Positions 9,612-28,591 of a DNA stretch of 64,000 bases are shown here, piece after piece; position 1 is the first letter of the stretch; each line of letters opens with the position of its first letter. A model generated the notes under the pieces. The model did not search any database. It saw only the letters and a list, made by a program, of their open reading frames with translations, and was not told where the DNA came from. A program made the position numbers and the translations under genes. This DNA comes from Citromicrobium sp. (GTDB lineage Bacteria; Pseudomonadota; Alphaproteobacteria; Sphingomonadales; Sphingomonadaceae): assembly GCA_002729695.1 (NCBI GenBank), contig PBYQ01000019.1:1-64000 (forward strand). Direction: 5' to 3'.

Positions 9612-11414
9612 ATGGCGACCACAGCCCCCCTTTCCGGAATGACGTATGTTTGCGGTGTCGAGCGATCACTTGCCGGGCGTAGCTGGCGCTGGCGCGGCGG
9701 TCGCAATCAGTTCGCGGACAGCTCCGCGAGTCTGAGCGATGATATCCTCACGCAAATCCTGCTCGCGCGTGGTGTTGCGCGTGACGATCTGGAGCGTCAG
9801 CGCGATCCCAAGCTGGCGACCTTCCTGCCCGATCCTGCGATCTTCCAGGACATGGAAGTGGCCGCGGAACGATTGGCGCAAGCCATTCTCACTCGTGAGA
9901 CCGTGACGATCTACGGAGACTACGACGTCGACGGGGCGACCTCGGCTGCACTGATGATTCGCCTGTTCCGGATGCTGGGTCACGAGGCTGGCTACTACAT
10001 TCCCGACCGCCTGCTCGAAGGTTACGGCCCGAGCGGCGAAGCGCTGGTCAAGCTGGGTGAGGAAGGCTCCAGCCTCGTCGTGACCGTCGATTGCGGCGCG
10101 ATGGCGCACGAGGCTTTGGCTGCGGCGCGCGACGCGGGCGTAGATGTGATCGTGATCGACCATCACAAGTGTTCGCCCGAACGCCCCGCGGCGGTCGCGC
10201 TGGTCAATCCGAACCGCCTCGACGAGGATGACGAGGCCGCGGCACACGGCCATCTAGCGGCGGTGGGCGTCGCGTTTCTGGTTGCGGTCGCGCTGGTGCG
10301 CAAACTGCGCGAGGGCGGTTATTTCAAGGATCGCACAGAGCCCGACCTTCGCGGCCTGCTCGACCTGGTCGCGCTGGGCACGGTTGCCGATGTCGCGGCG
10401 CTCCATGGGTTGAACCGCGCGTTCGTGTCCCAGGGTCTCAAGGTGATGGCGAGGCGTGCGAATATCGGCATGAGCGCGCTCATCGATGCCAGTCGTCTCA
10501 CCCGCGCGCCGGTCTGTTCCGATCTCGGCTTCGCGCTCGGCCCGCGAATCAATGCAGGAGGGCGCGTCGGCGAATCGACCCTGGGGGTGCGCCTGCTCAC
10601 CACCGAAGATGCCGAGGAAGCCGCGCAGATCGCCGCCCAGCTTTCACAACTCAACGAAGAACGCCGTGCGATCGAGGCGGAGGTTCAGGAGGCTGGCGAG
10701 GCGCAGGTGGCGGGTCAGGCAAACCGCGCCTTGCGAATCGTCCATGGCGAAGGCTGGCATCCCGGCGTGATCGGGATCGTTGCGGGGCGCATCAAGGAGA
10801 AGACGGGCAAGCCTACGCTGGTGATCGCTCGCGATGCGAAAAGCGGCCTCGGCAAGGGATCGGGCCGATCGATTCCCGGAGTGGATTTGGGTGCGGCGAT
10901 CATGGCTGCGCGCGAGGAAGGATTGCTCGAAGCAGGGGGCGGGCATGCCATGGCAGCGGGCCTGACCGTGCGCGACGACAAGATCGAAGCGCTTGCCGAA
11001 TGGCTCGAGGCGCGGCTCGATCGACAGGTTGCCGCGGCGAGCGCGGAGGCCTCGCTCGGTTTCGATCTGTCGCTTGGCCCGCGCGGGCTGACCGTCGAGC
11101 TGGTCGAAACGCTCGAACGGGGCGGCCCTTACGGCATGGGATGGCCGGGGCCGCGAATCGCAATTGGTCCCGTGCACGTCGTAAAGATCGACCGCGTCGG
11201 CAGCGATCATGTCCGCCTCGTGGCAGGATCGCGCGATGGCGGCTCGATAAAAGCGATCGCTTTCCGGATCGCAGATACCGAGTGGGGACAGGCTTTACTG
11301 GCGCTCGCGCCGGGAACTCACCTGTGGCTCGCCGGGCGCGCAAAGGTGGATACCTGGGCCAATACGCCTCGTGCCGAGTTGCACCTGGAAGACGCCGCGG
11401 TGGTCGAGCTGTAA
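9612..11414 (+). CDS. recJ: Single-stranded-DNA-specific exonuclease RecJ
   Basis: RecJ is a 5'-3' exonuclease on single-stranded DNA used in RecFOR recombination, mismatch repair and base excision repair. The 600-residue product has the DHH phosphoesterase motifs: IYGDYDVDGATSAAL, VVTVDCG, VIVIDHH and NPNR, followed by the DHHA1 region with GRSIPGVDLG and GGGHAMAAG. Its length is typical. The ATG at 9612 is the earliest; an ATG at 9639 (MTYVCGVERSL) aligns better with the usual RecJ N-terminus and may be the true start. It runs toward tRNA-Glu and phoR. Confidence 0.95.
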   Translation: MATTAPLSGMTYVCGVERSLAGRSWRWRGGRNQFADSSASLSDDILTQILLARGVARDDLERQRDPKLATFLPDPAIFQDMEVAAERLAQAILTRETVTIYGDYDVDGATSAALMIRLFRMLGHEAGYYIPDRLLEGYGPSGEALVKLGEEGSSLVVTVDCGAMAHEALAAARDAGVDVIVIDHHKCSPERPAAVALVNPNRLDEDDEAAAHGHLAAVGVAFLVAVALVRKLREGGYFKDRTEPDLRGLLDLVALGTVADVAALHGLNRAFVSQGLKVMARRANIGMSALIDASRLTRAPVCSDLGFALGPRINAGGRVGESTLGVRLLTTEDAEEAAQIAAQLSQLNEERRAIEAEVQEAGEAQVAGQANRALRIVHGEGWHPGVIGIVAGRIKEKTGKPTLVIARDAKSGLGKGSGRSIPGVDLGAAIMAAREEGLLEAGGGHAMAAGLTVRDDKIEALAEWLEARLDRQVAAASAEASLGFDLSLGPRGLTVELVETLERGGPYGMGWPGPRIAIGPVHVVKIDRVGSDHVRLVAGSRDGGSIKAIAFRIADTEWGQALLALAPGTHLWLAGRAKVDTWANTPRAELHLEDAAVVEL

Positions 11415-18228: not shown

Positions 18229-18993
18229 TCAGCGACACACTCCGCCCAGGCCCCTTGCTTCCTGATCGAGGTGGAAATGGTCGCGGTGCGCTTCGTTGTA
18301 ATCGGGTGAGAGGACGGTTCCGAACGCCCGGCACGCGCCATCGCGTACTTCTCGGAGGAACCGGGCCTTCTCGCCCTCCCCCTGCCAGTCGTTGACCACC
18401 GCGATGCGCGTACCGTCCGCCAGCACGAAGCCTGCAATGTCGATGGCATTGCCCGTGGCATGCTGACTCCACGGTCCCTCGTCGCGGCCATAGAGTCGAC
18501 GGCAGGAAAAGCTGCCGAAATGCTCGATCCGGGCGACTTCCTGCCCGAAGATTTCCTGCGCGAGGGGCTGCACGCTGTCGCGCCGCCAGACGTCCAGCGC
18601 AGCGGCGACCGCGCAGCTGGTGTCGGGCCGGTCGCCGGCATAGGGAAAATCGCTTAGCAGGATGCGGTTTTCCCGCCGGCAAGCGTCCTCCCCCACGGGA
18701 TCAAGCGTGGTGAACGCGACCTCGCTCCGCTCCAGCACCGCGCGACATTGCGCGGGGTCTTCGCGCAGGGCCGCGATCTTGGTGCGGGTTGCCCAGCCCG
18801 GCTCCTCGCGCAGGTCGAGCGGCGCCCACGGGTTGCTACCCGGATGCTCGGCAAGCCAGGCGCGCCCGGCCACCAGCACGGCGATCAGGATGAGGATCGT
18901 GAGCACGCGCCGGTCGCTGCTGAACCGGGCGAGCGGTCGCAGGAAGCGGGCGAGCGTCCTCAGTCTTCCAAAATCGTGCGGTGTGCCGGGCAT
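18229..18993 (-). CDS. Extensin-like C-terminal domain protein (putative wall peptidase)
   Basis: This 254-residue protein has one hydrophobic segment near residues 29-45 and then the bacterial extensin-like C-terminal domain, with a six-cysteine pattern and the motifs SQHATGNAIDIAGF and HRDHFHLD. The paired His/Asp motifs resemble the zinc site of M15-type D,D-carboxypeptidases, so a peptidoglycan role is likely but unproved. The ATG at 18993 lies two bases after the dnaE2 stop, so it is almost certainly translated from the dnaE2 message and may be SOS-induced with it. Confidence 0.85.
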   Translation of the reverse strand: MPGTPHDFGRLRTLARFLRPLARFSSDRRVLTILILIAVLVAGRAWLAEHPGSNPWAPLDLREEPGWATRTKIAALREDPAQCRAVLERSEVAFTTLDPVGEDACRRENRILLSDFPYAGDRPDTSCAVAAALDVWRRDSVQPLAQEIFGQEVARIEHFGSFSCRRLYGRDEGPWSQHATGNAIDIAGFVLADGTRIAVVNDWQGEGEKARFLREVRDGACRAFGTVLSPDYNEAHRDHFHLDQEARGLGGVCR

Positions 18994-18995
18994 CT

Positions 18996-21900
18996 TCAAT
19001 GAAAGTCGCGCGACTTGGGAATGATCCGCACATTGCGCGGGTGCCCGCCGGTATTGGGCAATTCGTCGATGAGGTCGCGTGGCCGAATTGCGCCTTGGTG
19101 CGCGGGATCGTCGGCCCCCTGACGCAAGTCATCGCGTGGGTTGATCTTCCCGCTCGGCAGCGGGCTGTTCACGTGGTCCGCACGCGCCAGCTGGTATTGC
19201 AGCGTATCGTCGGACAGGCGCGAGAGCATGTGCGTCGCGTCGGTCATATGCTGGGCGATGACGTGGATCACCTCGTCATCGTACTCCACGCGGCCACGGA
19301 CCTCCATCAGCCGCGCGCCCATCACCACCTTGCGCTGCTTTTCCTTGAGATCGGGCCACACGACCAGGTTCACCACCCCCGTCTCGTCCTCCAGCGTGAT
19401 GAAGCACACGCCCTTTGCACTGCCCGGCCGCTGGCGGATCAGCACCACGCCCGCGACCTGGACCATGCTGCGGAACTTGCGCTCGCGCAGATCGCACGCG
19501 CGCACGAAGCCGCGCTCGGCAAGGTCGGCACGCAGGAAGGCCATCGGATGCGCTTTCAGGCTGAGCCGCGTGGTCTGGTAATCGGCGACCACCTCTTCGC
19601 TGAGCGGCATGAGGGGCAGCGCGGTGCGCGCCTTCTCCGCCCCCTCGTCGCGCTCCGCCGCCGCGCGGAACAGCGGCAGGTCGGGCGCAGCGATCAGGCT
19701 GCGCGCGTCCCACAGCGCCTGACGGCGCGGCAGATTGAGCGACTGGAAGGCATCGGCACTGGCAAGCCGCTCGACATGCGAGGGGGAAAGCCCCGCGCGG
19801 TCGCGCAGCTCCGCCACATCGCGGTAGGGGCCGTTCTCGACACGCTCTGCCACCAGTTGCGCGGCGACATGCTCGGGCAAGCCGTCGATCTGCCGCAGGC
19901 CGAGGCGGAGCGCGATGTGGCGGTCGAGGCGGCCCTTGTCCTGCTTTGCCCACCCCGTTGCAGCTAGGCTCACCTTCGGTTCGCCAAGCTTCACTGCCCC
20001 TCCCGCTTGCGGGAGGGGTTTGCGAGACTTGGCAGCTTGCTGCCTAGTTGCAGCGGGGTGGGCATCCGATCCACGCACATCCTCCAGCGTACAATCCCAG
20101 TCCGAGCAATTCACATCCGCCGCCAGCACGCCGACGCCATGCTCGGCTGCGTCGCGCACGATCTGTGCGGGCGCGTAGAAGCCCATCGGCTGCGAGTTGA
20201 GCAGCGCACAGGCGAAAGCCGCCGGGAAGTGGCATTTGAGCCAGCTGGAAACGTAGACGAGGTGCGCGAAGCTGGCCGCGTGGCTTTCCGGAAAGCCGTA
20301 CTCCCCGAAACCGCGGATCTGGTTGAAGCACCGTTCGGCAAACTCGCGGTCGTAGCCGCGGTTCACCATCCGCTCGACCATCATGTCCTGCAGTTCGTCC
20401 ACCATGCCCCGGCTGCGGAAGGTCGCCATCGCCTTGCGCAGCCGGTTGGCCTCGAGACTGGAGAACTTGGCTGCGTCGAGCGCGATCTTCATCGCCTGCT
20501 CCTGGAAGATCGGCACGCCAAGCGTGCGTTCGAGGATGCTCGATAGCTCGTCGGGCGGGCCGTGCTGCGGGCTCGGCGCGGGGATCACCACCTGTTCCGC
20601 GCCCCGGCGGCGCTTCAGATAGGGATGGACCATGTCGCCCTGGATCGGGCCGGGCCGCACGATTGCGACCTGGATGACGAGGTCGTAGAACTCGCGCGGG
20701 CGCAGCCTTGGCAGCATGTTCATCTGTGCCCGGCTCTCGACCTGGAATACGCCGAGCGAATCCCCCTTGCGCAGCATCGCGTAGGTTTCCGGGTCCTCGC
20801 GCGGCACGGTGGCGAGTTGCAGCGGGCGCTGGTGGTGATCTTCCAGCAGGTCGAAGCACTTCTTGATGCAGGTGAGCATGCCCAGCGCGAGCACGTCGAC
20901 CTTGAGGATGCCGAGCGCCTCGATATCGTCCTTGTCCCACTCGATGAAACTGCGATCGGGCATGGCGCCATTGCCCACCGGCACGGTCTCGATCAGGTCG
21001 CCCTGGGTAAGGATAAATCCGCCGACATGCTGCGACAAATGGCGCGGCATTCCAATCATTTGGCTTGTGAGTTTGAGAACCCGCTTCAGGTGGGGATCGG
21101 TCACGTCCATCCCCGTTTCCGTCACATGCTTCTCGCCAATCTCGCTCCCCCAGCCACCCCACACGGTGCGCGCAAGCGACGCGGTGACATCCTCGCTCAG
21201 CCCCATCGCCTTGCCCACCTCGCGGATCGCCATGCGCGGGCGGTAGTGGATGACGGTGGCGCACAGGCCTGCGCGGTGGCGACCATATTTGCGGTAGAGG
21301 TACTGGATCACCTCCTCGCGCCGCTCGTGCTCGAAATCGACGTCGATATCGGGCGGCTCCTTGCGCTCCTCCGAGATGAAGCGGTCGAACAGCAACTGGT
21401 GCTTGGCCGGGTCGACGCTGGTGATGCCGAGCACGTAGCAGACGGCGGAATTGGCCGCGCTGCCGCGCCCCTGGCACAATATCGGCGGATCGACGCCGGT
21501 CCGTGCGAAATCGACGATGTCCTTGATGGTCAGGAAATAGCGCGCGAGATCGAGCTTGCCGATCAGCCCCAGCTCTTTCTCCAAGGTTATGCGAACAGTT
21601 TCCGGCAAGCCACTGGGATAACGTGATTTTGCGCCCTCCCACGTTTCCTGTTCGAGAAAGGCCTGCGGGCTCATGCCCTCGGGCAAAATCTCGTCCGGAT
21701 ATTCGTATTGAAGTTCGTCGAGCGAGAAGTCGCAGGCGTCGGCGATATCGCGTGACGTCATGACGGCATGGGGCCAGCGGGCGAACAGGCGGACCATGTC
21801 CTGGGGCGATTTCAGGTGCCGCTCGGCATTGGCATGGAGCAGCTGCCCGGCGGCCTCCACGGTCGTCTTGTGGCGGATTGCCGTCATGACGTCATTCAGA

Positions 21901-22688
21901 GGACGGCGCTCTGGTGCGTGATAATGCACGTCGTTCGTGGCGAGCAGCACGAGGCCGTGCGCGCGCGCCATGGCGTCGAGCCGGTCGATCCGCGCGATAT
22001 CGTCCCCGCGATAGAGGTAGGCGGCGGCAAGATGGCGCAGCGTCGGCAATTGCGCGGTCAGGTGGGGGAGGAGCTGCGGAAAAGATGCAGTCAGCTCCAC
22101 CTTGCCGTCATCCCGGACCGGCTCCAGAGTCTCGCTTCCCTTCTGCCGCTCCGAAGAAGGATGACGGAAGGGGATAACATTGCTCGGCACTGCAATCGTG
22201 AACCGTGCATCCAGTTCGTCCGGCGGCAGCAGGATCAACTGCACATCCTCGCTGTGGGCGGCGAGCATGGCGAGGTCGATCTCGCACACACCCTTGTCCT
22301 GCCAACCGCCCGACAGCGTCTGCATGCGGCCCTGGCTGATCAGACGGCACAGGCGCCCGTAGGCTACGCGGTTTTTCGGGTAGGCAAGGAAGGCGAGGCC
22401 TTCGGCGGTCTCGATCCGGCAGCCGATCACGGGGCGCAGCTTCAGCGTCTTGGCTTCGGTGTGCACGCGGACCACGCCGGCCATCGTGTTGGCATCGGCA
22501 ATGCCGAGCGCGTCGTAGCCGAGCATTCGTGCGGTGGTAACAAGGTCGACCGCGTCCGAACTTCCGCGCAGGAAACTGAAGCACGAGACGAGCCCCAGCT
22601 CGACGAAGGGCGCGCGCGGCGGCGGATCGATCCCTTCGGGGTCGATCTCTATCCGGCGCTTGTCGGGGGTGAGTGGAGCCTCTGGCAT
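18996..22688 (-). CDS. dnaE2: Error-prone DNA polymerase DnaE2 (ImuC)
   Basis: DnaE2 is the C-family polymerase that copies past DNA lesions with ImuA and ImuB and causes SOS mutagenesis. The 1230-residue product has an N-terminal PHP domain (FSFLRGSSDAVDLV), the polymerase active-site region with PDIDVDFEHERREEV, AVIHYRPRMAIREVGKAMG and VESRAQMNMLPRLRPREFYDLV, and a C-terminal OB domain ending with DATHMLSRL. It is longer than the usual 1,050-1,100 residues. Part of the excess comes from two in-frame palindromic repeats, at about residues 174-195 and 876-914. Both sit where homologues have loops, so activity is probably kept. It is the third gene of the SOS-controlled radical SAM operon. Confidence 0.94.
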   Translation of the reverse strand: MPEAPLTPDKRRIEIDPEGIDPPPRAPFVELGLVSCFSFLRGSSDAVDLVTTARMLGYDALGIADANTMAGVVRVHTEAKTLKLRPVIGCRIETAEGLAFLAYPKNRVAYGRLCRLISQGRMQTLSGGWQDKGVCEIDLAMLAAHSEDVQLILLPPDELDARFTIAVPSNVIPFRHPSSERQKGSETLEPVRDDGKVELTASFPQLLPHLTAQLPTLRHLAAAYLYRGDDIARIDRLDAMARAHGLVLLATNDVHYHAPERRPLNDVMTAIRHKTTVEAAGQLLHANAERHLKSPQDMVRLFARWPHAVMTSRDIADACDFSLDELQYEYPDEILPEGMSPQAFLEQETWEGAKSRYPSGLPETVRITLEKELGLIGKLDLARYFLTIKDIVDFARTGVDPPILCQGRGSAANSAVCYVLGITSVDPAKHQLLFDRFISEERKEPPDIDVDFEHERREEVIQYLYRKYGRHRAGLCATVIHYRPRMAIREVGKAMGLSEDVTASLARTVWGGWGSEIGEKHVTETGMDVTDPHLKRVLKLTSQMIGMPRHLSQHVGGFILTQGDLIETVPVGNGAMPDRSFIEWDKDDIEALGILKVDVLALGMLTCIKKCFDLLEDHHQRPLQLATVPREDPETYAMLRKGDSLGVFQVESRAQMNMLPRLRPREFYDLVIQVAIVRPGPIQGDMVHPYLKRRRGAEQVVIPAPSPQHGPPDELSSILERTLGVPIFQEQAMKIALDAAKFSSLEANRLRKAMATFRSRGMVDELQDMMVERMVNRGYDREFAERCFNQIRGFGEYGFPESHAASFAHLVYVSSWLKCHFPAAFACALLNSQPMGFYAPAQIVRDAAEHGVGVLAADVNCSDWDCTLEDVRGSDAHPAATRQQAAKSRKPLPQAGGAVKLGEPKVSLAATGWAKQDKGRLDRHIALRLGLRQIDGLPEHVAAQLVAERVENGPYRDVAELRDRAGLSPSHVERLASADAFQSLNLPRRQALWDARSLIAAPDLPLFRAAAERDEGAEKARTALPLMPLSEEVVADYQTTRLSLKAHPMAFLRADLAERGFVRACDLRERKFRSMVQVAGVVLIRQRPGSAKGVCFITLEDETGVVNLVVWPDLKEKQRKVVMGARLMEVRGRVEYDDEVIHVIAQHMTDATHMLSRLSDDTLQYQLARADHVNSPLPSGKINPRDDLRQGADDPAHQGAIRPRDLIDELPNTGGHPRNVRIIPKSRDFH
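19948..20063. repeat. 116-base palindromic repeat inside dnaE2
   Basis: Outer arms at 19948-19968 and 20043-20063 are inverted repeats matching at 19 of 21 bases (starting GCCCACCCCG). Inside is a perfect hairpin CCCCTCCCGC/GCGGGAGGGG at 19997-20018. The reading frame of dnaE2 stays open through it and encodes about 39 residues that look unlike the polymerase, including a proline- and alanine-rich stretch. The CACCCCG..TGC core and the flanking AAGTCT-like bases recall the element between the radical SAM and UdgX genes. Confidence 0.85.
22105..22167. repeat. 63-base palindromic repeat inside dnaE2
   Basis: CCGTCATCC at 22105-22113 is inverted as GGATGACGG at 22159-22167. The 63-base length is exactly 21 codons, and the frame is kept, adding a serine- and charge-rich stretch at about residues 174-195. 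The left arm layout (CGTCAT, CCCGG, TCCAG) matches the REPIN at 22711-22798, so this looks like an eroded member of that family. Confidence 0.75.
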
Positions 22689-22710
22689 CGGAGCGGCTCC
22701 CGCCCCTCCC

Positions 22711-22798
22711 CGTCATTCCCGCGAAGGCGGGAATCCAGCTTTTCCGGGCGCACCAACCCGCAAAAGAAGCTGGACCCCCGCCTTCGCGGGGGTGACGA
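22711..22798. repeat. REPIN-like double palindrome between udgX and dnaE2
   Basis: Two arms of about 33 bases are inverted to each other, and each holds its own hairpin CCCGC-GAAG-GCGGG (left) or CCCGC-CTTC-GCGGG (right). The few differences between arms (TT/AA in the left hairpin, CC/GG in the right) are compensatory, keeping each stem paired. The outer ends read CGTCA and TGACG. This is the architecture of REP doublets mobilised by RAYT transposases; no transposase is in the window. Confidence 0.85.
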
Positions 22799-22813
22799 GA
22801 AAAATTGAGAGTC

Positions 22814-24274
22814 TCATTGCCCCTCCAACTCCGCCAACCGCTCGCGCACTGCGGCGAGGTCTGCATCGAACAGCGCGGCCTGCCTGTTGCGCGCATCGCC
22901 ATCGAGGCGCAGGAGGTAGGAGGGGTGCGCGGTAACCCACAGCTCGCTGCCATCCTCAAGTGGGATGGCCTGCCCACGAATCTTCGCAATACTGACCGTC
23001 TTGCCCAGCATCCCGCGTGCCGCACTCGCGCCCATCGCCAGCACCAGCTTGGGCTTCACCAGTTCACGCTCGCCCTCGATCCACCAGCGGCAGGTGTCGA
23101 TCTCCTTCGCGGTGGGCGACTGATGCAGCCGCCGCTTGCCCCTCCCAGAAGCCTTGATCGTGAACTTGAAGTGTTTGACCGCATTGGTGACGTAGGCACG
23201 CCCACGATCGATGCCTGCGCGTTCCAGATGCACGTCGAGCAACTGCCCGGCGGGGCCGACGAAGGGCCGCCCCTCCTGATCCTCGTGATCGCCCGGCTGT
23301 TCGCCGACGATCATCAGCGCCGCATCGGACGGCCCCTCGCCCATCACCGCCCTATTATCGAGGCATCCGATCGGGCATTTGCGGCACCCTTCGATAGCCT
23401 CGCCGATCGCCTCCAGGCTTTCGGGACGCACGCCGTCATCGCGTTCCCCTGCCGCCACCATTTCGCTCTCCCGCTGCTGCGCGCCCGCGATCAGGTCGGG
23501 GATGAGCGCGGCTTCGGGCAGGTTCTTCCAGTATTTGCGCGGCATTTCGGAGAGCATCGCGCCCACTTTCAGCCGCGCGGGGTTGAAGATCGACGCATAA
23601 TAGGTGCGCCACAGATCCTCGACCGGGTCGCCCTGCGGCGCGTCGCTCTTCTGCGCGGGCGGGCCCTCGCGCATGGTCTCGCCATCCCAGTGCAGCGTGC
23701 CCTGCGGGGTCAGGATCGACCAGCGCATGCTCGCGAAGCGGCGCAGGAAGAAGCCTGCATTGGCGCGCAGGATGTGATGCTCTGGCTCGAACCACGCGAC
23801 GTAGTGCTCCGCTCCGCCTTCTTCCTCGACCTGCCGAAAACGGACGAAGGCGTGCATCTTGTGACTGTCGCGTCGGACGTTCTTGTCGAGTTCTTCCACG
23901 CGGCGGACATCGGGATCGGCCTTGTCCTCCATCAGCCGCGGATTGGCCTGGAGCCGCCACAGCAGGCGATAGAGCACCGAAAACCGCGCCGGATCGCTGT
24001 GCAGCGCGGCGTTCTTCGCAAGGCTGAGGTAGCGCTTGCTCGCGCGGACCGGCGGTGCGTCGGCGGGCGGCTCGGGCAGGCGCATGCCGCCGCCAGAAGA
24101 CGGTTGCGCAAAGAGATCGCCGCTGCCGCCCGGTTCGACCCACGCGACCTTGTCGGGCGGAATATCGCACTGGATCAACGCCCGCGCGCGTTCGCGCCAG
24201 AAGGCGAAATCGTCGCTGCGCGGCAGTTGCACGGTGTAATAGGCGTGCGGGCGGACGTGCTGGAGCGCGGTCAA
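22814..24274 (-). CDS. UdgX-type uracil-DNA glycosylase fused to a TIGR03915-like domain
   Basis: This 486-residue fusion has an N-terminal domain of unknown function (about residues 1-265, the TIGR03915/DUF4130 type) and a C-terminal UdgX domain (about 285-486). The latter has GEQPGDHED (324-332), the R-loop KRRLH (380-384) whose histidine in Mycobacterium UdgX becomes covalently linked to the abasic sugar after uracil removal, HPSYLLR (450-456), and cysteines 297, 300, 304 and 395 for a 4Fe-4S cluster. UdgX binds uracil in DNA tightly. The likely start is the TTG at 24274, with an AGGAGG-like site supplied by the adjacent repeat. It lies between the radical SAM gene and dnaE2 in one operon. 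Confidence 0.9.
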   Translation of the reverse strand: MTALQHVRPHAYYTVQLPRSDDFAFWRERARALIQCDIPPDKVAWVEPGGSGDLFAQPSSGGGMRLPEPPADAPPVRASKRYLSLAKNAALHSDPARFSVLYRLLWRLQANPRLMEDKADPDVRRVEELDKNVRRDSHKMHAFVRFRQVEEEGGAEHYVAWFEPEHHILRANAGFFLRRFASMRWSILTPQGTLHWDGETMREGPPAQKSDAPQGDPVEDLWRTYYASIFNPARLKVGAMLSEMPRKYWKNLPEAALIPDLIAGAQQRESEMVAAGERDDGVRPESLEAIGEAIEGCRKCPIGCLDNRAVMGEGPSDAALMIVGEQPGDHEDQEGRPFVGPAGQLLDVHLERAGIDRGRAYVTNAVKHFKFTIKASGRGKRRLHQSPTAKEIDTCRWWIEGERELVKPKLVLAMGASAARGMLGKTVSIAKIRGQAIPLEDGSELWVTAHPSYLLRLDGDARNRQAALFDADLAAVRERLAELEGQ

Positions 24275-24408
24275 CTTCCCCCCTCCTCTTCAGGGGAGCG
24301 GGTCAGAGGGCGGGGCTCGCCAGGAATGCCACACCCCGCTGCGACCAAGACTTGGCAAACGCCAAGCCCAAGTCTCGCTGCCCCTCCCCTAAAGGAGAGG
24401 GGGAAAGT
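24273..24408. repeat. Palindromic repeat between the radical SAM gene and udgX
   Basis: The outer arms (ACTTCCCCCCTCCT at the left, its near-complement AGGAGAGGGGGAAAGT at the right) flank a hairpin AGACTTGG/CCAAGTCT. The CACCCCGCTGC core recalls the element inside dnaE2. It fills the gap between the two genes; its left edge supplies the ribosome site and touches the TTG start of udgX. Confidence 0.75.
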
Positions 24409-24419
24409 CACTTGCCCCA

Positions 24420-25661
24420 TCATGCCGCAAACAGCTCCAGCTGCTCGGCCTTGGGCGCCAGCAGCGCGCGCAGGTCGGCGCGGTCGGTCAGCAGGGTCGG
24501 CCGCCAGTCCACCGTACAGATGAAGGCCCGCACCTTGGTGAGCGAGACGGTGAGCCGTGCCACATCGTCGAGCCTCAGCGTGCGGTGACGGCGCGAGGCG
24601 AGGATGCGCTGCACCGCCTTCACCCCCAGCCCCGGCACGCGCAGCAGGTCTTCCCGGCTCGCGCGGTTGACGTCGACCGGAAAGCGTTCGCGAAATTTCA
24701 GCGCCCAGGCGAGCTTGGGATCGATATCGAGCGGCAGGTTCCCGTCGGCCTCGGTCGCCTGCATGATTTCCTGCGGGCGGTAATCGTAGAACCGCATCAG
24801 CCAGTCCGACTGGTAGAGCCGGTGTTCGCGGATCAGCGGCGGGCGCTTCAGCGGCAGCACGGCACTCGCATCGGGGATCGGCGAGAAGGCGCTGTAATAG
24901 ACGCGGCGCAGGCCGAAACTGTCGTAGAGGCGGCTTGCGCGGCCCACGATATCCGCATCGCTCGCCGCATCGGCACCGACGATCATCTGCGTCGACTGGC
25001 CTGCAGGTGCAAAACGCGGCGCGTGCCTGAAGCGCTTCTTCGCATCCTTCGCCTCGACGATGTCATCCTTGGTCTTGCCCAGCGCGCCTTCGATCTGCCG
25101 CGCGTCCTTGTCGGGCGCCAATCGCGTCAGCCCCGCATCGGTCGGCAGTTCGACATTGATCGAGACGCGATCGGCGTAAAACCCGGCGCGGTGGATGATC
25201 TCAGGGTCCGCCTCGGGAATGGTCTTGAGGTGAATATATCCGCGAAAATCGTACTCTTCTCGCAGGATGCGCGCGGCCTCCACGATCATTTCCATCGTGT
25301 GATCGCTGCTCTTGATGATGCCTGAGGAGAGGAACAGCCCTTCGATATAATTGCGACGGTAGAAGCTGATCGTCAGGTCCGCGACCTCCTGCGGCGTGAA
25401 CCGCGCGCGCTGCACGTTCGAACTCTTGCGGTTGATGCAATAGTGGCAATCGAAGATGCAGTGGTTGGTCAGCAGGATTTTCAGCAGCGAGATGCACCGG
25501 CCATCGGGCGCGTAGGCGTGGCAGATGCCCATGCCTTCGGTCGATCCGATCCCGCCCTTCACGCTGTTGCGTTTCGCCGTGCCGGACGACGCGCAGGAGG
25601 CATCGTACTTGGCCGCATCGGCAAGAATCTTCAGCCGGTCGAGGATCGGTGCAACACCCAT
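24420..25661 (-). CDS. Radical SAM DNA modification/repair protein linked to UdgX (TIGR03916-like)
   Basis: The 413-residue protein has the radical SAM cluster motif CIFDCHYC (Cys68, 72, 75), a SAM barrel, and a C-terminal helix-hairpin-helix (about 330-360, with RVPGLGVKAVQRIL) that suggests DNA binding. It matches the family found only together with the UdgX-type partner; its chemistry is unknown. It ends with QLELFAA, close to the QL(S/D)LF motif that binds the beta sliding clamp. The ATG at 25661 is chosen because AAGGA lies six bases upstream and a LexA box ends two bases before it; the frame extends upstream but is unlikely to be translated. It heads the operon with udgX, dnaE2 and the extensin-like gene. 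Confidence 0.9.
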   Translation of the reverse strand: MGVAPILDRLKILADAAKYDASCASSGTAKRNSVKGGIGSTEGMGICHAYAPDGRCISLLKILLTNHCIFDCHYCINRKSSNVQRARFTPQEVADLTISFYRRNYIEGLFLSSGIIKSSDHTMEMIVEAARILREEYDFRGYIHLKTIPEADPEIIHRAGFYADRVSINVELPTDAGLTRLAPDKDARQIEGALGKTKDDIVEAKDAKKRFRHAPRFAPAGQSTQMIVGADAASDADIVGRASRLYDSFGLRRVYYSAFSPIPDASAVLPLKRPPLIREHRLYQSDWLMRFYDYRPQEIMQATEADGNLPLDIDPKLAWALKFRERFPVDVNRASREDLLRVPGLGVKAVQRILASRRHRTLRLDDVARLTVSLTKVRAFICTVDWRPTLLTDRADLRALLAPKAEQLELFAA

Positions 25662-25663
25662 AT

Positions 25664-25678
25664 GTTCCTTATATGTTC
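25664..25678 (-). promoter_or_regulatory. LexA (SOS) box of the radical SAM-udgX-dnaE2 operon
   Basis: GTTC-CTTATAT-GTTC is a perfect match to the alphaproteobacterial LexA site GTTC-N7-GTTC. On the coding strand it ends two bases before the radical SAM ATG and overlaps the ribosome site, so LexA would block this operon until DNA damage. Confidence 0.9.
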
Positions 25679-25821
25679 TTGCAATTGGATTGGCTAGCCC
25701 TTCCCTCGCGGCTCGTGCAAAAATTCCTCTTATCAAATGTTTGCTCACTTGTTCACAGGCGGGCATGTGACCTTGCCCTTGGCCCGCAATGCGCGCATGA
25801 TCGCGTCGGAGGAGAGGCATT

Positions 25822-26136
25822 ATGGACGATCTTTCGATCAATTCCGGCCTGGCCAATCGCCTTTGGCGCGTGGCGCTGTGGGGCTCGGTCGTCGCCATTC
25901 TCATCGCTCCGCTGGTCGCGATGCAGTTCACGGGCGAGGTTCACTGGACGCCGTTCGATTTCGCGGTGGCCGCGGCGCTGCTGGGCGCCACCGCGCTGGC
26001 CATAGAGCTGGCGATCCGTGTGATCGGTCGCCCGACTTTCTGCGTCGTGGCGGTACTCGGTATCCTGCTGGCGCTGGTGCTGGTATGGGCCGAGTTGGCG
26101 GTGGGCATCTTCGGCACGCCTTTCGCAGGGCACTGA
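25822..26136 (+). CDS. Small three-helix membrane protein
   Basis: This 104-residue protein has three clear hydrophobic helices, at about residues 15-35, 45-66 and 71-95, and no recognised enzymatic motif. A strong GGAGAGG site precedes the ATG. It sits alone on the plus strand between the two SOS operons, ending 15 bases before the convergent imuB stop and divergent from the radical SAM gene, with which it shares about 160 bases of upstream sequence containing the LexA box. Similar small membrane proteins occur in sphingomonads; the function is unknown. Confidence 0.8.
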   Translation: MDDLSINSGLANRLWRVALWGSVVAILIAPLVAMQFTGEVHWTPFDFAVAAALLGATALAIELAIRVIGRPTFCVVAVLGILLALVLVWAELAVGIFGTPFAGH

Positions 26137-26151
26137 CGCCGTAGCGTTGAA

Positions 26152-27705
26152 TCACGCGTAGAGCCCCTGCAGGAACCATTCGGGCGCGCCCCCGCGGCCG
26201 TCGCCTGCGATCCCGTAGCGATAGATCCAGTAGCGGCGCCCGGCATCGTCCTCGATCCGGTAATAGTCGCGCAACCGCGCCGTGCCGCGTTCGCGCCACC
26301 ACTCGGGCGCGATCCGCTCCGGCCCTTCGACCCGCGCGATCTCATGCACCTCGCCGCGCCAGCGGAACCGCTGCGGCAGGCCGTCGGGCGTGGCGTAGAG
26401 CACCGCGATCGTCTCCGCCCGGTCGAGCAGTTTGAGCGGGCGGGCATGGAACCGCAGGCTCTCCTGCGATGGCAGCTCGGGGTCGAGCGCGGGCTGCCAG
26501 CCTTGCGAGCGTTCGGGCAGGTGGCTTCCTTTCAGCACCGGGCGGCGCACCGCCTTGGGGCCAAGCCGCGTGGTCAGCCGGTCGACGAAGGCGGCAAGCG
26601 AAGTGCCGTGGCGTTCGGCGGCGGCTTCGATATCGGCCTGGTTCGCGGGTAGCGGTTCGGCCCAGCTCGCACGCAGGCGAACCAGTTCGATCCCGAAGCC
26701 CGCGTCGATATCGCCCAGCTTTTCGCCGAACAGCCGCACGATATGCGCCGCATCGCGCGTGGCGGCAGCGAGTTCCAGCGTCTTGACGGCGACCTCGCCA
26801 TTGACCCTCCACAGCCCGAGGTCGAGGCGGCGGGCACCCTGCCCCGCCCCTTCGAGTTCGCGGACCATGTCCGCGGCCAGATCGCCCAGCACGGTGTCGA
26901 GCAGCGCGCGGTGACGGATCGGCTCCATCAGCCGCCGCTGCACCAGCGGCACCTGCTGCGGCACCACCGGCAGCAACGGTTCGGGCACGCGACCGAGCAG
27001 CTGGTCCATCCGCACCAGCGGATTGGCAGCGGGCGACTTGCGGTTGCGGAACCGGCGGTGAAGCGCGTCGCGGCCCACCGTCCCCAGCTCGCCGAGCCGC
27101 TTGAGCCCGAGCCTGCGAAGCACGGTGAGCACGTCGTCGTCGAGCCGCAGCGCCGCCACGGGCAGGTCGGAAAGGCGCGCTTCCATGTCGTCTTGGGGAG
27201 CGAGAATGCTGCGCTCCGGCCCATAATGCGCCAGCGCCCATGCCGCACCGGCGGTCGGCGCGATCGCAGCGCGAACGGCAAAGCCGCGCGTCTCGAAGGC
27301 ATTGTAAACGTCCGCCAGCAGCTTCGCCTCGCCGCCGAACAGGTGCGCCACGGCGGTGACATCCACCAGCAGCCCGTCGGGCGGATCGAGCGCAGACCAT
27401 GGCCCCCAGCGCATGGCCCATGCGGCGAGCCTTTCCAGTTCCGCAAGGTCGCCCGCGGGATCGCCCGGCACCGCGACGATCGAGGGGCACAGCGTGCGTG
27501 CATCGGCGAGCATGATGCCGATCCGCGCGCCCGCATTTCGCGCTGCGAAGTTGGTGGACTGGATGCGCGGGCCGTGCGCGGTCTCGGTGATCAGGGCCAG
27601 CGGCTGCGCGTCGGCACCTTCACCCCGCGCGCAGCCTTCGGCCAGACGCCAGCGATCGATCGCGAAAGCCGCGAGCCAGATCGAGAGGATGCGGCGGGGC
27701 GCCAT
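26152..27705 (-). CDS. imuB: ImuB, catalytically dead Y-family polymerase-like protein
   Basis: ImuB is the adaptor of the ImuA-ImuB-DnaE2 mutasome; it resembles DinB but lacks the catalytic acids and recruits DnaE2 to the clamp. The 517-residue product begins RRILSIWLAAFAIDRW, where active DinB proteins have a DMDxFYA motif, so the key aspartate is absent as expected for ImuB. A little-finger-like region and a C-terminal WREERG/YYRIEDDAGRRYWIYRYG segment typical of ImuB follow. The ATG at 27705 lies two bases after the imuA stop; a TTG overlapping that stop is possible. I did not find an unambiguous clamp motif by eye. Confidence 0.92.
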   Translation of the reverse strand: MAPRRILSIWLAAFAIDRWRLAEGCARGEGADAQPLALITETAHGPRIQSTNFAARNAGARIGIMLADARTLCPSIVAVPGDPAGDLAELERLAAWAMRWGPWSALDPPDGLLVDVTAVAHLFGGEAKLLADVYNAFETRGFAVRAAIAPTAGAAWALAHYGPERSILAPQDDMEARLSDLPVAALRLDDDVLTVLRRLGLKRLGELGTVGRDALHRRFRNRKSPAANPLVRMDQLLGRVPEPLLPVVPQQVPLVQRRLMEPIRHRALLDTVLGDLAADMVRELEGAGQGARRLDLGLWRVNGEVAVKTLELAAATRDAAHIVRLFGEKLGDIDAGFGIELVRLRASWAEPLPANQADIEAAAERHGTSLAAFVDRLTTRLGPKAVRRPVLKGSHLPERSQGWQPALDPELPSQESLRFHARPLKLLDRAETIAVLYATPDGLPQRFRWRGEVHEIARVEGPERIAPEWWRERGTARLRDYYRIEDDAGRRYWIYRYGIAGDGRGGAPEWFLQGLYA

Positions 27706-27707
27706 GC

Positions 27708-28574
27708 TCAACCAAGAACCCTCTCCCCATTGGGGGAGAGGATGGCGACGCTTGCTCCGAAGGAGCTAGCAAAGCCTGGAGAGGGGGATGCGGCGTTCGA
27801 AATCGCAACACGCCCCTCTCCAACTTCGGCTAGGCCGCTATGCGACCAACCCTTCGTATCCTCTCCCCGCACGGGGAGAGGGGTTTCGCGCTCCGCCACC
27901 AACGTTCCCGCATCCTCGCTCAGCCGCCATGTGCCCGGCGGGTGGCTGCGCGCGCGGAACAGTTCGGCCTGCCATGCGGGAACGCCGGGTGCCTGCCGGT
28001 TCCACCGTGGACGCGCCGAGGGTGCGGCCTGCACCGCCCAGCGCTGCCGTGCGGAGGAAAGATCGCGCGTCCCGTCGAGCCGCACCAGCGTCAGCGGGAC
28101 GCCATGCCGCTCCGCCGCCAGCGTCAGTCGGCGCGAAGCGGTGAAGTCGAGCGCGCGGGGGCTGCCCACGATCTCGCCGATCACGAAGGCGATATCGCGG
28201 CAACGCACCGCCTCTTCCAGCGCGAACAGCGCATCCTCGTCCTTCTCGGCGAGCACGTGGATCAGGCGGTGACGAATCTCTTGCGGCAGGCCGGCCCGAA
28301 ACGGGCGACCGCCGCGCTTCACCGCCGCGCGGGTCTGCACCCACACCACGGCACGACGATCCTCCGCCTCCTCCCCCTCCGCACGCGGGCGGCAGCGCCA
28401 TGCGTCGAGCGCGAACGCCAGCGCGGCGCCCGCCCCGCTACCATCTCGCCCCGAGGCGAAAATTTCGCTCTGCGCGACGGCGCCCAGCCCCGGGCGCCAG
28501 CGTTCGGCCTGCGAAGGCGAGGCAAGCGCGGCGGCGGTATCGAATGCATCAGGGATCATGGCGGAACGACTCAT
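27708..28574 (-). CDS. imuA: ImuA, RecA-like mutasome protein, with a repeat-derived C-terminus
   Basis: ImuA is a RecA/SulA-related partner of ImuB and DnaE2 in SOS mutagenesis. The 288-residue frame shows the ImuA pattern: ERWRPGLGAVAQSEIFASG, a glycine-rich SGAGAALAFAL region, VVWVQTR, IAFVIGEIVGSPRALDFTASRRL and the following LTLVRLDGTRDLSSARQRW stretch. The last roughly 59 residues are encoded by a palindromic repeat, so the original C-terminus has been replaced or extended. The ATG at 28574 is chosen because the LexA box ends two bases before it, exactly as for the radical SAM gene; GTG 28583 and ATG 28559 are alternatives. Confidence 0.88.
   Translation of the reverse strand: MSRSAMIPDAFDTAAALASPSQAERWRPGLGAVAQSEIFASGRDGSGAGAALAFALDAWRCRPRAEGEEAEDRRAVVWVQTRAAVKRGGRPFRAGLPQEIRHRLIHVLAEKDEDALFALEEAVRCRDIAFVIGEIVGSPRALDFTASRRLTLAAERHGVPLTLVRLDGTRDLSSARQRWAVQAAPSARPRWNRQAPGVPAWQAELFRARSHPPGTWRLSEDAGTLVAERETPLPVRGEDTKGWSHSGLAEVGEGRVAISNAASPSPGFASSFGASVAILSPNGERVLG
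27721..27880. repeat. Compound palindromic repeat forming the 3' end of imuA
   Basis: Hairpins CTCTCCCC-ATTG-GGGGAGAG (27721-27740) and CTCTCCCC-GCAC-GGGGAGAG (27861-27880) flank an inner inverted pair TGGAGAGGGG (27777-27786) and CCCCTCTCCA (27813-27822). The same kind of three-stem element occurs between pgk and gap. Here it is inside the imuA reading frame. Confidence 0.85.
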
Positions 28575-28576
28575 CT

Positions 28577-28591
28577 GTTCCACTTATGTTC
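28577..28591 (-). promoter_or_regulatory. LexA (SOS) box of imuA-imuB
   Basis: GTTC-CACTTAT-GTTC matches the alphaproteobacterial LexA consensus GTTC-N7-GTTC perfectly. It ends two bases before the imuA ATG at 28574, the same geometry as the box of the radical SAM operon. Confidence 0.9.

Follow-up and report, generated by a model that had tools for sequence, protein, structure and literature searches.

A radical SAM–DUF4130-UdgX–dnaE2 gene set with a LexA-type box beside imuAB in a Citromicrobium genome

Results

Gene content of the locus

We analyzed a 64,000-nucleotide stretch of Citromicrobium sp. DNA (contig PBYQ01000019.1 of assembly GCA_002729695.1, positions 1 to 64,000; the window, contig C19 in our numbering) from an Erythrobacteraceae-type genome of 3.01 Mb in 46 contigs that is 93% complete. 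Within it, a set of minus-strand genes encodes, in transcriptional order, ImuA, ImuB, a radical S-adenosylmethionine protein of the TIGR03916 family (rSAM), a DUF4130-UdgX fusion, the polymerase DnaE2, and an extensin-like protein (Table 1). This locus is a genuine operon variant, conserved among relatives, that is built from SOS modules already known. The closest related loci belong, by name, to Erythrobacter, Citromicrobium, and Alteriqipengyuania. The gene identities proposed in a preliminary description of the sequence were found at this place and on this strand, with ImuA being a weak match only: it scored 24.5 bits (E value, 2.2e-5) against NF033429, below the cut-off of 150, and its position and box fit the assignment.

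The rSAM exceeded the TIGR03916 cut-off (577 versus 343.5 bits). Its probable start is the ATG at 25661 rather than the beginning of the long open reading frame (ORF) that extends to 25931, because the profile begins at residue 96 of that ORF and a LexA-type box covers the ribosome-binding region. The fusion ORF (22814-24274) begins 145 bp past rSAM and matched TIGR03915/DUF4130 over residues 20 to 255 (227 bits; cut-off, 112) and the TIGR03914 UdgX model over residues 257 to 476 (306 bits; cut-off, 190). ImuB passed the Pfam gathering scores for IMS (29.8/23.2 bits), IMS_C (22.6/20.7), and DUF6504 (33.8/24.2), the last of which we take to be the ImuB-C domain.

Table 1. Features of the imuAB-rSAM-udgX-dnaE2 locus (window coordinates)
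Feature	Coordinates	Strand	Basis or remark
LexA-type box GAACATAAGTGGAAC	28577..28591	-	immediately upstream of imuA ATG (28574)
imuA	27708..28574	-	weak match NF033429; 3' end enters repeat element
imuB	26152..27711	-	Y-family-like IMS + IMS_C + DUF6504; start TTG 27711 or ATG 27705
Small ORF, putative membrane protein, between imuB and rSAM	25822..26136	+	ORF list
LexA-type box GAACATATAAGGAAC	25664..25678	-	over rSAM ribosome-binding region
Radical SAM protein, TIGR03916, 413 aa	24420..25661	-	profile match
CX3CX2C radical-SAM cluster motif, residues 68-75	25437..25460	-	present in 123/123 unique sequences
Helix-hairpin-helix DNA-binding region of rSAM, ~residues 324-357	24591..24692	-	Pfam HHH_3 (below cut-off); ComEA/RuvA HhH in PDB
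C-terminal QLELF, beta-clamp-binding-type motif, residues 407-411	24429..24443	-	motif consensus from PMC4549789, PMC3919608, PMC12309361
DUF4130/TIGR03915 half of fusion	23510..24274	-	profile match
UdgX (TIGR03914) half of fusion	22847..23506	-	profile match
R-loop KRRLH, crosslinking-type histidine = residue 384	23123..23137	-	aligned to UdgX 6AIL
Inverted repeat, 31-nt arms, filling udgX-dnaE2 gap	22711..22797		sequence
dnaE2	18996..22688	-	NF004225, 1373.9 bits, cut-off 939
Extensin-like_C protein	18229..18999	-	Pfam 6e-58; 4-bp overlap with dnaE2 end; N-terminal hydrophobic stretch

LexA-type boxes and transcription units

LexA-type boxes were sought with the pattern GAACN7GAAC and with a stricter form, GAACAWANNNNGAAC. 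The bare pattern is weak within one window, where 3 sites were seen versus 1.77 expected and the third lies inside udgX, but the stricter form occurred at 6 sites in the whole genome and at 0 for a reversed control, and two of the six are those at imuA and rSAM. In a third case, 5 bp separate the site from the downstream ATG of an ORF for RmuC (Pfam, 3e-95; G000:C6, box 200519-200533; L185, L208). A fourth site falls within the 5' portion of another radical SAM ORF, before the profile begins (G000:C32, 64182-64196; L187, L209); the protein encoded there belongs to the PA0069 family (443 bits; cut-off, 360). No clear gene was found behind the remaining two sites (contig C9).

Among 80 related loci, mostly titled Sphingomonadales and close kin of one another, a box lay within -80 to +25 of the rSAM start in 80/80 (versus 75/14908 control stretches), and a box was present at imuA in all 60 loci where this was testable. 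Of 33 other alphaproteobacterial loci, 28 had an rSAM box within -80 (control, 3/1454) and all 33 had one within -130 (control, 3/940); in four of the five loci with the more distant box (L106 to L109), imuAB and rSAM diverge from one common box. Outside the Alphaproteobacteria, a CTGTN8ACAG box stood at rSAM in 2 of 9 loci and a GAAC box in none, and a CTGTN8ACAG box was seen by eye just ahead of rSAM in four more genomes (L137, L138, L141, and L146). LexA control of both imuAB and the rSAM-led genes is thus predicted from conserved boxes, as had been proposed.

The proposal that all of these genes form a single operon stands only in part. The rSAM-udgX-dnaE2-extensin set is one probable unit: no box of its own was found at dnaE2 in any of the 63 loci where it follows udgX by less than 400 bp, so that in this clade its SOS induction would most likely proceed from the rSAM promoter. 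The imuAB pair, in contrast, is probably a separate transcription unit, since it and the rSAM set each have their own box and a plus-strand ORF lies between imuB and rSAM.

Conservation of the arrangement

The order imuA-imuB-rSAM-udgX-dnaE2 was kept on one strand in 60/80 related loci, frequently with start-stop overlaps between rSAM, udgX, and dnaE2. By the test put forward with the original proposal, the presence of the neighborhood in related genomes speaks against adjacency by chance within this clade. The arrangement was partial in 6 further loci, of which 5 lie at the end of a contig, and rSAM-udgX stood without imuAB or dnaE2 nearby in the other 14. Ten of these 14 genomes have DnaE2 over the cut-off with ImuB elsewhere, and in the majority of the ten a box of the GAAC type lies close to imuA. 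Neither DnaE2 over the cut-off nor an ImuB match was found in the other four, two of which are isolate strains by title (Qipengyuania marisflavi, L014, and Altericroceibacterium indicum, L063) and two of which are metagenome-assembled genomes (MAGs; L031 and L032); the absence is weak in L031 because that genome shows no DnaE-type match whatsoever.

In a DnaE2 tree made by a quick method from 22 of the 63 linked sequences and 25 others, the linked sequences formed one clade (SH-aLRT, 100) within a group having contiguous imuAB-dnaE2, and the DnaE2 sequences of a second family, in which rSAM and dnaE2 are divergent, fell in a separate clade; linkage of rSAM with dnaE2 therefore probably has two or more origins. 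In 8 of the 14 loci that lack the linkage, the first labeled gene beyond udgX is the extensin-like one, which makes it probable that dnaE2 entered between these two genes.

The rSAM protein

We compared 123 unique rSAM sequences, 81 of which are close kin of the window's protein. The CX3CX2C motif (C68, C72, and C75 here) was present in all 123, and C23, C47, H48, and C56 were kept in 122, the exception being a divergent Gemmatirosa protein (L119); this near invariance suggests an auxiliary metal site. In methylthiotransferases, N-terminal cysteines hold an auxiliary cluster, and the three cysteines that precede CX3CX2C could be read in the same way, with rSAM-DUF4130 being a DNA (or tRNA) modification enzyme and not a repair system. 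The near invariance of the cysteines and the NCBIfam label of the rSAM ("modification/repair") fit this reading, which we nonetheless regard as improbable, as the SOS-type control and the helix-hairpin-helix region point to damaged DNA and neither NCBIfam nor Pfam gave a match to a methylthiotransferase model. No support was found for an identity with SplB: at an E value of ≤0.001, NCBIfam matched only TIGR03916 and, weakly, TIGR02351 (thiH), and no spore photoproduct lyase (SPL) family model.

The helix-hairpin-helix lies in the C-terminal third and resembles those of ComEA and RuvA. Beyond it, the protein ends in QLxLF in 103/123 sequences and in QLxLx[FL] in 3, with 0 to 3 (once 6) residues following the motif; in the window, QLELF ends two residues from the C terminus. 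The 17 variant tails are QLSLL (five), QLGFGF (four), QMELF and QGSLF (two each), and QLSLI, QLQLI, QMLLI, and QLSLW (one each). The linker to the motif measured 27 residues in 99 of 120 sequences and 16 to 51 in the others, and among 3072 other six-frame ORFs from the same loci, each 200 amino acids or longer, not one had a C-terminal QLxLF. QLxLF is described as a beta-clamp motif that is frequently C-terminal, with QLSLPL being a tight-binding form (PMC4549789, PMC3919608, PMC12309361), and the rSAM tail is probably a docking motif of the beta-clamp-binding type. The Gemmatirosa protein, which is plasmid encoded (5899-7161), carries QLSLW about 20 residues before its end and is without the three extra cysteines.

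Partners across genomes

Profile matches over the cut-off were surveyed in 144 Alphaproteobacteria and 249 Pseudomonadota. In the former, TIGR03916 and TIGR03915 were found in the same 8 genomes, at most 640 bp apart in 8/8; DnaE2 was found in 71/144, including 7 of these 8, and stood beside rSAM in 2. In the latter, rSAM was found in 56 genomes, DUF4130 in 59, UdgX in 55, and DnaE2 in 117. DUF4130 was present in 56/56 rSAM genomes, 54 times on the same strand within 2 kb; in G335 and G343, 2.8 to 3.1 kb, including a beta-helix gene, separate the two. DUF4130 occurred without rSAM in three genomes, two on single contigs (G327 and G374) and one perhaps at a contig edge (G317). On these counts, rSAM and DUF4130 are a near-inseparable unit, a constant pair.

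Among individual loci, two of the window's family have two genes, one encoding a right-handed beta-helix, between rSAM and DUF4130-udgX (L129, 5261-7684; L130, 8300-10542), and another has a hemerythrin gene there (L131). In G327 and G374 (L134 and L135), DUF4130 is still divergent beside imuB-dnaE2 despite the absent rSAM, and the DUF4130 frame of G374 is short (226 amino acids) and without fused UdgX.

UdgX is a less constant companion. It adjoins DUF4130 in 44 of the 59 DUF4130 genomes, and one of the other 15 (G313) looks like a contig break, but 13/56 rSAM genomes have no UdgX over the cut-off and 12/55 UdgX genomes have no rSAM over the cut-off, with one of the latter (G317) possibly reflecting a contig edge. 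Of 14 places where UdgX lies away from DUF4130, one is that in G313, one adjoins a DUF4130 remnant below the cut-off (G219), and three are second copies. Beyond the Pseudomonadota survey, rSAM with a stand-alone DUF4130 was found in a Parabacteroides plasmid record, and in an Acinetobacter contig filed as phage (L122, CAKLQH020000003.1, 240 kb), the gene after rSAM is labeled a "probable DNA metabolism protein" and shows a weak alignment to DUF4130. The latter contig also carries glyS and glyQ and looks like a bacterial chromosome. A search of viral contigs for further diverse sequences gave 3 loci, one of which is a phage fusion of uracil-DNA glycosylase (UDG) and polymerase.

These counts bear on the mechanism first suggested for the locus, a serial pathway in which UdgX captures uracil or abasic sites, rSAM resolves or repairs them, and DnaE2 synthesizes across. 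The tight operon shared by the genes fits such a pathway, DnaE2 is present in 52/55 UdgX genomes versus 65/194 others (figures uncorrected for kinship or genome size), and, in a different family, a UdgX gene on its own lies next to dnaE2 (G324). The parts are nevertheless separable: besides the genomes with rSAM and no UdgX or the reverse, DUF4130 stands alone beside rSAM in Parabacteroides and in the Acinetobacter-type contig, and rSAM-udgX is kept in the four genomes (two of them MAGs) without DnaE2 over the cut-off or an ImuB match. The constant partner of rSAM is DUF4130, and dnaE2 lies within 10 kb of rSAM in only 9/56 genomes. We consider the serial mechanism unlikely, and the separate evolution of UdgX and rSAM cautions against treating UdgX as the maker of the rSAM substrate. 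The lone UdgX gene of G324 (L136, 9479-10141) is tail to tail with the dnaE2 gene of an imuB-dnaE2 unit.

Of the nine linked genomes, five are codirectional (the window's family) and four are divergent (another family), and DnaE2 was found in 48/56 rSAM genomes versus 69/193 others, again uncorrected for kinship or genome size. It may be that rSAM-udgX and dnaE2 adjoin for common LexA control without functional contact, with the divergent family merely sharing one box. This account draws on the scarcity of the linkage, which is confined to two families, on the single clade of linked DnaE2 sequences, for which one event and its retention explain the conservation among the 80 loci, and on the 10 of 14 unlinked relatives that have imuB-dnaE2 elsewhere, mostly with a box of their own. 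Set against it are the two probably independent linkages, the retention of the arrangement in three-quarters of the related loci, frequently with overlapping start and stop codons, and the clamp-type motif of rSAM, which would place the protein where the mutasome works. We hold co-regulation alone to be a possible explanation, although a tentative one.

UdgX, DUF4130, and clamp motifs in the other proteins

When the UdgX half was aligned to 6AIL, KRRLH fell on KRRIH, and motif A (GEQPG, with Q) and motif B (HPSYLLR) were present. The R-loop histidine was found in 106/106 GEQPGD-bearing ORFs, of which 102 matched the strict pattern and 4, where GR replaces GK, were recognized by eye. Uracil crosslinking by the window's UdgX is predicted from these motifs. 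A DHH/RecJ-type phosphoesterase fold is a tentative candidate for DUF4130. Its structure model (pLDDT, 76.9) aligned with 8a8k and 1ir6 in VIA-align (Z, 8.0; rmsd, 4.6 to 4.7; 183 to 191 residues aligned), and the structural list was mostly of the DHH superfamily; the best Foldseek E value was 0.09, and hhalign gave a probability of 0.1% to RecJ (21 RecJ sequences, 17 after filtering).

No common canonical clamp motif was found in ImuB, with QL/QM-G-L/M-W in 10/88 rows; ImuA has QAELF or QAQLF in 16/81 rows. The window's DnaE2 has DLPLF at residue 1003, near the PLPLF motif reported for alphaproteobacterial DnaE2 (PMC3919608).

Neighboring features

The plus-strand ORF between imuB and rSAM has homologues in 5/80 related loci (L002 to L005 and L045), and a Pfam search with it gave no match. 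An inverted-repeat element at 27719-27882 overlaps the imuA 3' end and gives ImuA an odd C-terminal tail. In many relatives only about 1 bp separates udgX from dnaE2, whereas the gap is filled here by the inverted repeat, which may affect dnaE2 expression. The extensin-like protein shows the pattern SxHxxGxAxD...HxDHxHLD, which we take to be that of an LAS-type zinc peptidase-like enzyme, and with its N-terminal hydrophobic stretch it is probably an exported cell wall enzyme. A recJ gene (DHHA1 match) is also present in the window (10746-11015). PADLOC gave no match to anti-phage defense systems for the 4 proteins tested.

Discussion

We suggest, with about even confidence, that the locus contains an SOS-induced operon in which a clamp-tethered rSAM-DUF4130 pair processes lesions and UdgX caps uracil or abasic sites, in parallel with DnaE2. 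A LexA-type box would drive rSAM, DUF4130-UdgX, dnaE2, and the extensin-like gene, with imuAB boxed separately alongside. The rSAM would hold DNA with its helix-hairpin-helix and use the QLxLF at its C terminus to dock on DnaN, the sliding clamp, giving it access to primer ends and gaps; there, partnered by DUF4130, it would act on a DNA lesion through radical chemistry. The fused UdgX would excise uracil and covalently cap the abasic site, shielding it from cutting, and DnaE2-ImuB would work in parallel at these clamp-marked sites as a tolerance branch, with DnaE2 encoded in this clade on the same message. The reasoning is as follows. The combination of a helix-hairpin-helix and a clamp-type tail would place rSAM-DUF4130 on DNA at clamp-loaded sites, and the SOS-type box implies that the pair would be needed after damage. 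Because rSAM-DUF4130, UdgX, and the mutasome are separable in evolution, a single obligatory chain cannot include them all as steps, and this separability, together with the joining of DnaE2 in two sampled families, favors parallel branches at the same sites.

Several observations weigh against this reading. The match of the tail to a clamp motif is one of sequence alone; 6/123 tails (the four QLGFGF and two QGSLF) fail even the relaxed pattern, the six-frame control ORFs are not curated proteins, and 81/123 rSAM sequences are close kin, the other 42 comprising 23 with strict QLxLF, 3 with the hexapeptide, 14 variants, and 2 with QGxLF. An AlphaFold2 model of rSAM from 65 closely related sequences reached a pLDDT of only 50.5. 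Neither type of box was found in 7/9 non-alphaproteobacterial loci, and the distance from imuB to rSAM is up to 5.4 kb in some relatives. Finally, DnaE2 co-occurs more strongly with UdgX than with rSAM, which could point to a UdgX-DnaE2 tie tighter than a parallel arrangement needs.

A bolder version of the parallel reading, which we put forward as speculative, is that rSAM-DUF4130 constitutes an undescribed form of DNA repair: the clamp-delivered rSAM would reverse a lesion in place at stalled or gapped sites, competing with DnaE2-ImuB or preparing the template for it while UdgX caps abasic sites, and would be an SOS-induced counterpart, in several phyla, to spore photoproduct lyase. For this widespread rSAM family with its constant partner DUF4130, chemistry and substrate are undescribed as far as we have found; the pair, a probable docking site on the sliding clamp, and a probably co-expressed polymerase turn "unknown function" into direct tests.

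The view that the system is undescribed can be maintained for its chemistry but not for its control. We take COG4277 to be the TIGR03916 rSAM family. DUF4130 has been termed a predicted mutagenesis-related enzyme, linked to SplB-like rSAM photolyases and UDG (PMC3765255), and LexA-type control has been predicted in print for a two-gene COG1573-COG4277 operon in Bacteroidetes, in a paper that refers to Verrucomicrobia and Alphaproteobacteria (Caulobacter) as groups where a UDG-based repair system is described as being under SOS control (PMC8565304). Caulobacter is reported to have four COG1573 UDGs (PMC1839093), an rSAM of this kind rises on desiccation in Acinetobacter (PMC13130816), the rSAM is included in a Sphingomonas list of repair genes (PMC9611098), and UdgX has been proposed to capture uracil and protect the abasic site (PMC10359453). 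Our searches of the open literature turned up neither the joint operon with dnaE2 nor the clamp-type rSAM tail, at which no search was aimed. The tail and the three extra cysteines before CX3CX2C are, as far as we have found, new here, and the tail is the most useful new lead.

Comparison with known systems places the locus among several familiar modules. Like the COG1573-COG4277 operon, it is a UDG-containing repair operon under LexA-type control, but that operon is described as a separate two-gene unit, whereas the genes here lie upstream of dnaE2. CAC3343-CAC3344 of Clostridium acetobutylicum, for which LexA control has been proposed, likewise comprises an rSAM of the same description and a following gene, but the account of this pair in PMC3828012 gives the second gene as "unknown function" and mentions neither a UDG nor a polymerase. 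The UdgX half shares motif A, the R-loop KRR-L-H, and motif B with UdgX of PDB 6AIL, but whereas that protein is a 229-amino-acid chain, the window's UdgX is the C-terminal domain of a DUF4130 fusion of which only the UdgX half aligns. With SplB, the spore photoproduct lyase, rSAM has the radical SAM character in common, but no SPL family model matched, and the genome has a separate, boxed rSAM of the PA0069 family. The ImuA-ImuB-DnaE2 cassette is represented by ImuB and DnaE2 profiles, an imuA-like gene, and LexA-type boxes, but here the cassette is split, with dnaE2 standing third in a unit led by rSAM and having no box of its own.

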